28,217 bases of DNA from a virus (IMGVR_UViG_3300009149_000210:1-28217), one strand, 5' to 3'. Counted from the stretch's first letter, positions 23,687-28,217 are shown. Translations and numbers: made by a program. Notes: a model not told the origin generated them from the sequence alone.

Positions 23687-23800
23687 TTATTTCTTAGTTA
23701 TTAATAATGTATCACCGAATAATTTCTTTTTATATTTATAATCATCTGGTAATAATTTTTCTATATATCTAATATATATATGTTCTTTCTTCTTTTGTCC
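23687..23800 (-). pseudogene. probable C-terminal part of the 24162 gene in the -1 frame
   Basis: On the minus strand, 37 codons in the -1 frame relative to the gene ending at 23761 read GQKKKEHIYIRYIEKLLPDD followed by YKYKKKLFGDTLLITKK and a stop at 23687-23689. That stop lies 3 bases from the ATG at 23683, matching the tight spacing elsewhere in the operon. The family to which the gene seems to belong ends in a similar R/IY-x-RYI-x-x-x-LP segment. A TAA in this frame just upstream limits the frame change to the A-rich stretch at about 23761-23805. Confidence 0.55.
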
Positions 23801-24162
23801 TTTTTAAAATTAGATACAGGATTAATTTTTAATAACTTTGGGTCATATTCTTTTACAAATTCTTTAATAATATTAACAACGGTTGACATCACCCTATAAA
23901 ATCTTCCTTTGTTTACAACAATTCTATCACCTTCATTATCATCATCCCCTGTTGTTACAAATTCTACTTGATAATGACCCATCCATTTTTCTTTGTGTTG
24001 AAATTCTCCTATATGGAAAAACCTAACTATATATTTATCACCATCATCTGTTGTGAATGTATAATAAGTTGCTAATTCATAATCTATTTCTTTCTTATAA
24101 GAATATGGTTCAACCATTAATTGTCCTACTTCTTCATTTATAAATTCTGAATAGTTTTTCAT
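23761..24162 (-). CDS. CTS-tagged phage protein, frameshifted near its end
   Basis: The uninterrupted frame gives 133 residues. The N-terminus MKNYSEFINEE is nearly the T4 internal-protein capsid-targeting sequence MKTYQEFIAEA, with I-N-E (8-10) as a predicted prohead-protease site. Next come beta strands (YTFTTDDGDKYIVRFFHIGE, HYQVEFVTTGD) and then FYRVMSTVVNIIKEFVKEYDP, which matches the order of a phage family I remember, F-R-V-x-x-T-V-x-x-I-I-K-x-F. In that family a further helix and strand follow, but here the frame ends in KRRKNIYILDI. The missing part lies in the -1 frame (23687-23800). It overlaps the stop of the 24159 gene by 4 bases. This may be a natural frameshift, programmed slippage or an assembly error. 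Confidence 0.75.
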   Translation of the reverse strand: MKNYSEFINEEVGQLMVEPYSYKKEIDYELATYYTFTTDDGDKYIVRFFHIGEFQHKEKWMGHYQVEFVTTGDDDNEGDRIVVNKGRFYRVMSTVVNIIKEFVKEYDPKLLKINPVSNFKKDKRRKNIYILDI

Positions 24163-24590
24163 CGTGGATCGAAATTTGGATTTTCAACAATTGTATCTGT
24201 TTCTTTGTTATAATATCCCATCACAAATCTTGGTGGTAATGTATACATTAATTGATCTCCATCTTCACCACCCATGAATGGTTCTTTTATTGTTAATAAA
24301 TCATAATCTTTTGGTATATTATCATCAATTTGTATAATTATTATATAATTACCATATGCTGTTCTTAGATATATATTATAAGCTAATGAAGTCATATCTT
24401 TATTTATATCATCAGTTGTTTTACGAAATATATCATATTGATATCCTTCTTCCATAATTTTTTTACACGTTTCTTCTTCTTTTGTAGTGTGTAAATAAGT
24501 ATGCACATAACCATCGGTACTAGATATAAAATCTAATAATTCTTTATATTCGTGTTTTAAAAATGTTTCAAATAATTTAATGTGTTTCAT
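24159..24590 (-). CDS. CTS-tagged protein, possible ADP-ribosyltransferase-like fold
   Basis: A 143-residue protein starting MKHIKLFETFLKHE, a variant of the tag shared by this cluster. Residues 28-60 hold YVHTYLHTTKEEETCKKIMEEG, which resembles the first ART motif (H-x-T, helix, I-x-x-x-G). It continues with an R-x-x-YGNYIIIIQIDD strand (76-91) and LPPRFVMGYYNKETDTIVEN (118-137). T4 packages the ADP-ribosyltransferase Alt in its head, so an injected ART would be in keeping, but the Glu of the catalytic triad cannot be assigned and I rate the match weak. It lies 2 bases after the CCA-adding enzyme gene. Confidence 0.55.
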   Translation of the reverse strand: MKHIKLFETFLKHEYKELLDFISSTDGYVHTYLHTTKEEETCKKIMEEGYQYDIFRKTTDDINKDMTSLAYNIYLRTAYGNYIIIIQIDDNIPKDYDLLTIKEPFMGGEDGDQLMYTLPPRFVMGYYNKETDTIVENPNFDPR

Positions 24591-24592
24591 TA

Positions 24593-27036: not shown

Positions 27037-27050
27037 ATTTATATATAAAT
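27037..27050. promoter_or_regulatory. 14-bp palindrome in the divergent intergenic region
   Basis: ATTTATATATAAAT is a perfect palindrome in the 51-base gap between the divergent genes at 27014 (minus) and 27066 (plus). It lies 15 bases before the plus ATG and 22 before the minus ATG, so one element could serve as -10-like box or dimer-binding site for both. Confidence 0.45.
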
Positions 27051-27065
27051 AATGAAAAATTAACT

Positions 27066-27533
27066 ATGAAGATGATTAAGAATTTTAAACAATATAATGA
27101 ATCCATAAGGGATAAAATGGAAGGTGTACCAACCGAAGAAGTTAAGAAAAAAATAGATGAAATTTTATCTGGTGATAATGAAGATATTACTTCTAAAATA
27201 TATGATTTTTTCGTGAAAATATATAATGATTATTCATATGCTGATGTATATGAAGATATAACATTTAGCTTTGATCCGGATTTTACAAGAAAAACAATTC
27301 TTAAATTAATCAAAGAAAAAATGGATGATGGTTATTATAAAAAAGCATCAGAAGTTCAAAAAGATGATACGGAAGAATTCTTAACCGAAATTTATGATAT
27401 ATTATATTATCAAGATGATTATATGTATATGGAATTAATAGAAGATTTAATAAACGAATACGATCCTGAAGAATTCAAAAAGATTGCAAAAAATATGTTA
27501 AAAAAGGAATTAAAACTAAACGACTGGTTATAA
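27066..27533 (+). CDS. CTS-tagged helical protein, single-module relative of 25893
   Basis: A 155-residue, acidic, mostly helical protein. It starts FKQYNESIRDKMEG (7-20), with Glu12-Ser13 as the tag motif, and resembles module 1 of the 373-residue protein transcribed in the opposite direction, including I-x-x-K-I-Y near 40 and the matching end YDPEEFKKIAKNMLKK. It stops exactly where that module would join the next (KLNDWL). Its stop overlaps the next ATG (TAATG), so the two are coupled. Function unknown; predicted internal head protein. Confidence 0.7.
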   Translation: MKMIKNFKQYNESIRDKMEGVPTEEVKKKIDEILSGDNEDITSKIYDFFVKIYNDYSYADVYEDITFSFDPDFTRKTILKLIKEKMDDGYYKKASEVQKDDTEEFLTEIYDILYYQDDYMYMELIEDLINEYDPEEFKKIAKNMLKKELKLNDWL

Positions 27534-28217
27534 TGGTTAAGAAATTTAACGAATATATAAATGAATCTTTGACGGATAGAATGACATCTAAACCAGATGA
27601 TGAAGTATTACAAAGTTTAGAAAAACTAAAACCACGTGATGCTTTAGATAAAGCTATTGTTATGGGATTTCTTGAAGGTGTAAAGAAAGCATTACCTAGA
27701 TTCGCTGCAAACCAACATTGGTATGATTATGGTATAAGACGAGCTGCTGAAAACGGTCATGTAGATATTGTTAAATATTTTATGGAAGAAGGTGCTGATA
27801 ATACTGATGTAGCTTTAAATATAGCTTTCATAAAAGGACATTTAGAAGTGTTCGAATATTTATTAGAACAAGGTGCTGATATAAAAATAATACCAAGCAC
27901 AAGATTTGATGTTTATTTAAGACCTGCGAAAAAAGAAAAATTTCGTGAATTGTTTAAAAAGTATGGTGGTATAGATGAATCTTTAAAAGATCAAATGACA
28001 CCTAAATCAGATGAAGATATATTTAATGTTGTTATGAACAAAGATATATCTGAAGTAACTGATATGCTTTATGATATTTATAAGAAAAACCCACCAACTG
28101 AATTATTAGTTAAATTAGCTGATAAATTTGGAATTCCAAACGACTTTAATAAAGTTACTATAATTGATATATTAGATGCTATAAATTTTATCAAAAAATA
28201 TAAAAAACCACACGATA
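27533..28217 (+). CDS. CTS-tagged ankyrin-repeat protein (3' end outside window)
   Basis: The frame is open from the ATG at 27533 to the right edge (228 codons), so the product is incomplete. It starts KKFNEYINESLTDRMTSKPD, with I-N-E (9-11) followed by S-L, and has a second copy GIDESLKDQMTPKSDED at 146-162 (Glu149), 138 residues later. Between them are about two ankyrin repeats (GIRRAAENGHVDIVKYFMEE at 67-86, then IAFIKGHLEVFEYLLEQG). After Glu149 a second helical module begins. Ankyrin repeats bind proteins, so the first module could target a host protein after injection. It is coupled to the preceding gene by a TAATG overlap. Confidence 0.75.
   Translation, partial: MVKKFNEYINESLTDRMTSKPDDEVLQSLEKLKPRDALDKAIVMGFLEGVKKALPRFAANQHWYDYGIRRAAENGHVDIVKYFMEEGADNTDVALNIAFIKGHLEVFEYLLEQGADIKIIPSTRFDVYLRPAKKEKFRELFKKYGGIDESLKDQMTPKSDEDIFNVVMNKDISEVTDMLYDIYKKNPPTELLVKLADKFGIPNDFNKVTIIDILDAINFIKKYKKPHD

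Follow-up and report, generated by a model that had tools for sequence, protein, structure and literature searches.

What do six adjacent genes, lying on both strands at one end of a phage contig, have in common when they share a short N-terminal leader and little else? The question is raised by the window analyzed here, IMGVR_UViG_3300009149_000210:1-28217, which is a complete IMG/VR record of 28,217 bases and represents a linear phage fragment without head genes. An initial annotation of its last part (positions 23,687-28,217) proposed that the leaders, hereafter tags, direct unrelated proteins into the phage head in the manner of the internal proteins (IPs) of phage T4, and that these proteins enter a Bacteroidota host together with the DNA. 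The tags are very probably propeptides for capsid targeting, of the same kind as in the T4 internal proteins. The features that support this reading were computed directly: the tag itself, its separability from the body, the unrelated bodies behind it, a T4-type head module in relatives of the window, scaffold repeats, chimeras with the N-terminal arm of the major capsid protein (MCP), covariation of the tag with the MCP, and a common upstream element.

Since the window is a 28-kb fragment, the tag was tested in relatives. Among phage records, the nucleotidyltransferase of the window is closest to those of LR745206 (634,780 bases; 40% identity) and LR756502 (642,428 bases; 36%), both metagenomic huge phages, labeled W01 and W02 in the following. 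The other relatives compared were W10 (a 735-kb phage, of which 300 kb were scanned for the strict motif), W11, G006, PAU and MA9V-2. Nearer relatives of the window are short contigs only (G016, 41 kb; G019, 39 kb; and L008-L010).

The tagged genes of the window

A position-weight tag model was obtained by expectation-maximization on the first 20 residues of the W01, W02 and G006 genes, with the tags of the window only among the seeds. The last six consecutive genes of the window score 5.8-17.5 bits; the remaining 36 all stay below 5. At internal methionines of the pooled relatives, which served as control, 2.8% reach 5 bits, so that six of 42 window genes correspond to P ~1e-3; the adjacency of all six has P ~4e-10, but the region was picked after the fact. 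The strict T4-type pattern M-x(0,5)-[YFW]xx[FY][ILVF]xE is present in two of the 42 genes (23761 and 27533, named by their first positions) and at none of 146 internal methionines. The six N-termini quoted in the initial annotation are all present as quoted, and the last gene (27533) continues past the window end.

The first tagged gene (23761..24162, minus strand, 133 amino acids) begins MKNYSEFINE↓EV, the arrow marking the predicted cut, and has the exact T4 layout with aromatic residues at positions 4 and 7, Ile8 and Glu10. By comparison with the sites in T4 and in the MCP, its predicted P1 glutamate codon (FINE↓E) is 24133..24135 on the minus strand. The body shows a weak likeness to DUF6934, and the orthologs in sister contigs begin MKKYLEFINEEVGQ and MKNFVEFINEEVGQ. 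The second gene (24159..24590, minus strand, 143 amino acids) begins MKHIKLFETFLKHE and scores 17.5 bits; its ortholog in L010 starts MKHVRLFEDF and is 45% identical. The description of this body as ADP-ribosyltransferase (ART)-like could not be confirmed: searches of Pfam, NCBIfam and PDB gave no match, and the AlphaFold model, with a pLDDT of 38, is uninformative. Hydrophobic or aromatic residues stand at positions 4 and 7 in both proteins (Y4 and F7 in 23761, I4 and F7 in 24159).

The third gene (24593..25891, minus strand, 432 amino acids) encodes a tRNA nucleotidyltransferase of the CCA-adding/poly-A polymerase family, with matches to PolyA_pol PF01743 (E=5e-31), PHROG 2244 (E=3e-56) and CCA-adding enzymes in the PDB (E=1e-31). 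Its tag, MKKMQKYQNFNVSLQD, has no cleavage Glu, and the sister version MIKKFDDMINKRKK is likewise degenerate; the orthologs in huge phages bear canonical tags. The C-terminal tail of the enzyme, ...MLNESYIVESFDIFKKES (24593-24640), is not found in homologs and holds two cut-site-like motifs. It is possibly a C-terminal propeptide, by analogy with that reported for T4 Alt. An RtcB RNA ligase without a tag is encoded in the same genome (13872-15269).

The fourth gene (25893..27014, minus strand, 373 amino acids; 15.1 bits) carries the tag ILKTFEEFNE↓SLRDHM, in which the predicted P1 Glu codon (FNE↓SLRD) would be 26976..26978 on the minus strand, followed by two internal cut-site-like motifs. On the plus strand, gene 27066..27533 (155 amino acids; 12.3 bits) begins MIKNFKQYNE↓SIRDKM, and its sister ortholog, 62% identical, starts MITKFNDYINE↓SLRDKM. 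The sixth gene (27533..28216, plus strand) is cut by the window end and encodes an ankyrin protein (E=6e-9) with the tag MVKKFNEYINE↓SLTDRM. A seventh candidate lies outside the six-gene cluster (8331..9134, plus strand, 267 amino acids) and has the variant tag MITNFNEYNLLQE↓NLMLE↓ASS, with a sister ortholog reading MITNFNEYNLLQE↓SLLLEKSS; since its model score is just 0.8 bits, its candidacy rests on pattern and conservation. A cleavage-type Glu is present in 23761, 25893, 27066, 27533, 8331 and arguably 24159, and is missing from 24593.

The claim that the bodies are unrelated holds for the ankyrin protein, the nucleotidyltransferase and others, and fails for one pair: module 1 of the 25893 protein is paralogous to the 27066 protein (31% identity, E=8e-13). 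An IMG/VR peptide-pattern search for loci related to the 373-aa and 24159 proteins returned none, and neither did tblastn in phage records with the consensus SLRDQM peptide and the 24159 protein as queries.

Copies of the ESLRDQM type also occur inside two window proteins, the 373-aa protein (Glu153, Glu239) and the ankyrin protein (Glu149). In the former, the predicted internal P1 Glu codon 26556..26558 on the minus strand (GLDE↓SLRDQMTPK) marks the tag remnant of a fused module 2 and aligns with the sister start MIKKYKDFNE↓SLRDKMIPK; a second, before module 3 (WMTE↓SLRDQMVAK, 26298..26300, minus strand), is predicted by analogy with module 2. In the ankyrin protein, the candidate internal Glu codon is 27977-27979 on the plus strand (GGIDE↓SLKDQMTPK); the sister ortholog, 55% identical, keeps both motifs. 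In G019, module 2 is a stand-alone 96-aa gene with the full tag MIKKYKDFNE↓SLRDKM. The fused module 2 of the window reads LIKHEIGLDE↓SLRDQM, so that the cut-site half is retained and the targeting half eroded. Similarly, a new tagged domain is fused ahead of the nucleotidyltransferase in L009, and the old tag region has become internal. A strict DNA pattern for ESLRDQMTPK was found in two contigs only and is too narrow. The simplest reading of these sequences is one loading signal per chain plus several cut sites, that is, putative cargo polyproteins. By eye, an apparent LAGLIDADG-type homing endonuclease gene lies inside the tagged-gene cluster of the sister contig G019 (L358, 2779-3597).

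The leader is separable and not part of a folded domain. In the AlphaFold model of the window nucleotidyltransferase, residues 1-24 have a pLDDT of ~26-32 and the domain one of ~90. The nucleotidyltransferase of L029 has no leader. An RNA ligase carries the leader in W01 and W02 and none in the G006 frame, and the common body begins at the same point. Tags are concordant in a set of ortholog pairs, and tag classes are also swapped on one body, MIIKKYIKFINE-EFDHL in W01 vs MKYLRTYE-GFDHL in W02. Codon use within the tags is genome-typical, which indicates that selection acts on the amino acids. In T4 IPIII, residues 4 and 7 control targeting and residues 8 and 10 processing (PMC9026906).

The tag and the head in related phages

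With a threshold of 9 bits, 144 of 893 genes are tagged in W01 and 166 of 922 in W02, vs 0.4% at internal methionines; net of controls, the tagged share is ~16-18% of the genes of these phages at 9 bits and ~19-21% at 7 bits. The strict motif is found 23 times in W01 (0.9 expected), 23 times in W02 (1.8), 12 times in W11 (0.2), six times in the sister contig G016 (0.0) and 23 times in the scanned part of W10 (1.5). In T4 it matches exactly two genes, those of the known internal proteins IPII and IPIII, and in phiKZ, PTm1 and Lak it has no match. An exact DNA search for MKHLKxFNE matched 96 stretches in IMG/VR contigs of up to 597 kb, with at least 45 clusters of bodies behind them.

A leader is ~10-20 residues long. 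A hydrophobic residue 4 together with an aromatic residue 7 occurs in 76% of the tagged W01 and W02 genes vs 4% of the untagged, and a Glu within residues 8-13 in 91% vs 29%. A signal peptide or lipoprotein reading of the tags was rejected in view of their amphipathic character and conserved Glu. The glutaminyl- and asparaginyl-tRNA synthetases passed 9 bits in a single genome and are regarded as false positives. The 182 tagged W01 proteins at 7 bits form 174 BLAST clusters, among which very divergent homology can hide. One tagged family (W01 90898, 416232 and 475547; L012 2687), present in several huge phages, has LLLES-x-x-x-YSxxLRxxL after the tag; the one member tested has no PHROG match.

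A gp21-type prohead protease, which cleavage of the T4 kind calls for, was found in the huge relatives as an S77-type enzyme fused to a scaffold and encoded beside a T4-type MCP and portal; a PF03420 profile search had no match in the window, a fragment that carries no head genes. A T4-type head and a gp21-type prohead protease are present in W01, W02, W10, W11, PAU and MA9V-2. In W01 and W02 the T4-type portal, protease and MCP follow in this order, and the protease has both the His and the Ser motif of T4 gp21. The scaffold region fused to it consists in these two phages of tandem 14-residue repeats, YSEYIAENLDKNIA. Copies of the strict tag motif (YSEYIAE-N) number 11 in the fusion of W01, 11 in that of W02 and 14 in that of W10, which makes it the top protein of each genome. 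In Lak the protease-scaffold is without repeats, and tags are absent.

The tag also occurs joined to MCP-like sequence. Two small proteins, W01_93266 and W02_80294, consist of a tag followed by a copy of the mature MCP N-arm: the chimera reads ...YKKFIE↓NADGSSTSGMGAVSSAQPGGLAGTT and the MCP ...FHSINE↓NAYANASNVSGMGAVVAAQPASLAGTT, the matching MCP stretch lying just past the predicted cut. The products of their genes (W01 93266-93520, W02 80294-80539) may act as decoys in shell assembly or regulate it. The N-terminal region of the MCP also has short, partial paralogs (KKWAPIIESMGV...INEN) at W01 291407, W02 315773 and W10 276342.

From lineage to lineage, the tag changes together with the MCP pro-segment. 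The PAU tags have the form MKTLxxLYEAKLNE↓A. Across all PAU proteins, KLNE[AS] is confined to six tags and MCP residue 20; the PAU-lineage tag is present in 19 of 286 genes vs 0 of 1201 controls. For MA9V-2, the MCP sequence is RWSEFINE↓A and the tag sequence MKTFxxFINE↓A (8 of 260 genes vs 0 of 1325 controls).

An unbiased search returned an element, TAATATATA, upstream of 44-52% of the tagged vs 7-13% of the untagged genes in W01, W02 and G006 (p 1e-15 to 6e-28); in most cases it lies 13-14 bases ahead of the tagged start. It also precedes the portal and protease genes, and a variant is found at the MCP gene; among the untagged genes that have the element farther away are those for portal, decoration and endolysin proteins. 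Replication, nucleotide and translation genes abound in a sample of genes that lack it. The element differs from the T4 late consensus, and the T4 late-promoter sequence TATAAATA is not enriched upstream of tagged genes. A distance of 13-14 bases implies near-leaderless late mRNAs, and some tagged mRNAs may thus be nearly leaderless. In the window, the intergenic stretch between the divergent tagged genes (27015..27065) contains TTTATATATAAATAA, a candidate counterpart that resembles the element of the huge relatives.

Proposed route to the host and competing explanations

By analogy with T4, we infer the steps of docking, cleavage, packaging and injection, and the function as cargo, as follows. 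The amphipathic leader, with hydrophobic or aromatic residues at about 4, 7 and sometimes 10, would dock on the prohead core during head assembly, and in the huge relatives it would do so by imitating one repeat of the protease-fused scaffold (YSEYIAE-NLDKNIA). The S77-type protease would then cut after Glu, at [ILFY]-x-E↓[S/N/A/E], a type of site at which cuts are also predicted in the scaffold repeats and in the pro-segment of the MCP. Once released, the body would remain in the head and enter the Bacteroidota host with the DNA. In the window lineage, where tagged genes are fused in tandem, one targeting tag and internal E↓SLRDxM sites would give a chain that is cut into several cargo domains. 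We lean, by a modest degree, towards the full form of this proposal, in which about one sixth of the genes (~150 proteins) are virion-delivered, loaded by a scaffold-repeat mimic and cut by the scaffold-fused protease, with fused cargo polyproteins in the window lineage that have a single loading tag and more than one internal cut site.

The tagged bodies of W01 and W02 include a CCA-type nucleotidyltransferase, T4-type RNA ligase, 2H phosphoesterases, NUDIX proteins, methyltransferases, HNH proteins and cell-wall hydrolases; Acb1-like proteins are matched with weak scores (24-29 bits). RNA repair and cyclic-nucleotide hydrolysis would suit proteins needed in the first minutes of infection. 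In T4, Ip1-3 have only the leader in common and differ in the GmrSD restriction enzyme that they inhibit (PMC12373910).

The host claim is supported by a window protein (670-1545) with a signal peptide-like start and a C-terminal sorting domain of the type IX secretion system (T9SS), which is apparently exported via the host system; this sorting domain points to Bacteroidota. A search for the MCP in bacterial genome contigs, aimed at a host link, found none. Another gene (1598-3391) encodes a 597-aa protein with WxxGxFxxG-type repeats and a weak pentapeptide-repeat match, possibly a fibre. The window further encodes a gp32-type single-strand binding protein, RtcB and a thymidine kinase.

Several observations weigh against delivery as proposed. 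No virion proteomics was found for these phages. To our knowledge, ~150 distinct cargoes per virion is far above the number in any known phage, and some tagged proteins may therefore not be packaged. In W01, W02, G006 and W10 the tagged bodies are acidic on average (net charge per residue -0.03 to -0.06), unlike the small basic bodies of the T4 internal proteins. The nucleotidyltransferase tag of the window lineage lacks the cut-site Glu. This lineage is known from contigs of at most 41 kb only, and its own genome as recovered is without head genes. Finally, the enrichment of TAATATATA is confined to W01, W02 and G006 and is absent in W10 and W11.

In another explanation, the tag binds the prohead core, but the majority of tagged proteins serve in assembly or in the core and are degraded or lost, not delivered. 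Imitation of a scaffold repeat would fit such a role, and in T4 the prohead protease also cuts core proteins, which then exit the head (PMC9026906). This explanation is nevertheless improbable, as the bodies include enzymes without an obvious assembly role (RNA ligase, CCA-tRNA nucleotidyltransferase, Acb1-like, NUDIX, methyltransferases), and the tagged gene sets vary strongly between phages, as cargo would, with 41 concordant ortholog pairs of ~150.

The position of the upstream element 13-14 bases before many tagged starts in the huge relatives would fit an N-terminal peptide that acts as a translation-start leader for near-leaderless mRNAs; alternatively, the peptide could be a localization signal for a site elsewhere, such as a replication focus or the membrane. 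A role of either sort is highly improbable in view of the genome-typical codons of the tag, its covariation with the MCP pro-segment and its joining to the MCP N-arm, the T4-type variants at other offsets and the swapping of tags on the same body. Least probable is a functionless tag left by residual homology within one fast-evolving gene family. In its favor, the divergent multi-copy family with tag-(x)n-DIxxELxDxGY makes up 11-13% of the tagged W01 and W02 proteins, and the window has its paralogous pair (25893 module 1 and 27066). Against it, tags stand on well-defined unrelated enzymes, occur on and are missing from the same RNA ligase body, and match the scaffold and MCP of their own genome.

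Significance and relation to known systems

If the capsid-targeting reading is true, the proteins injected by the largest known phages, which have mostly never been cultured, can be predicted from a simple sequence rule, and the rule points to a large pool of candidate anti-defence and take-over proteins (tRNA repair, RNA ligase, Acb1-like, NUDIX). It would also give a testable account of how capsid-targeting sequences act, namely by scaffold-repeat mimicry, and lineage-specific cargo tags for protein delivery. Sphingobacterium phage PAU and MA9V-2, both cultured, carry their own tag versions, so that a direct test is feasible now. Within open-access papers (preprints not covered), no description of such tags in huge or Bacteroidota phages was found.

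PTm1, a Tenacibaculum phage, and MA9V-2, a Chryseobacterium phage, have scaffolding-protease fusions and the same gene order of portal, protease-scaffold and MCP; the scaffold of PTm1 has other repeats and the phage no strict tags, whereas MA9V-2 has ~8 tags. The inner-body and ejection proteins of phiKZ and SPN3US are similar in that giant phages carry many proteolysed head proteins which enter the host. Their propeptides are mostly longer than 100 residues (PMC5694885), whereas the leaders described here have ~10-20 residues, the heads of the relatives are T4-type, and phiKZ has no strict match. T4 Alt, an injected ADP-ribosyltransferase with a 7-residue propeptide (PMC9026906), is likewise a head-carried enzyme trimmed by the prohead protease; this propeptide is short and different, and the window 24159 protein is at most a candidate ART. 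The closest likeness is to the capsid-targeting sequences of T4 IPI-IPIII, processed by gp21: an N-terminal leader of 10-19 residues with key residues 4 and 7, cleavage after Glu, unrelated bodies, and a T4-type MCP, portal and S77 protease in the relatives of the window. The differences lie in number, with three IPs in T4 vs ~140-190 tagged genes per huge-phage genome, in the likeness of the tags to scaffold repeats and their variation among lineages, in the acidity of the bodies, in tandem fusions of tagged proteins that contain predicted internal cut sites, and in the probable Bacteroidota hosts. The proposed mechanism is of a known kind; its scale, the scaffold mimicry and the tandem-fusion architecture are new.

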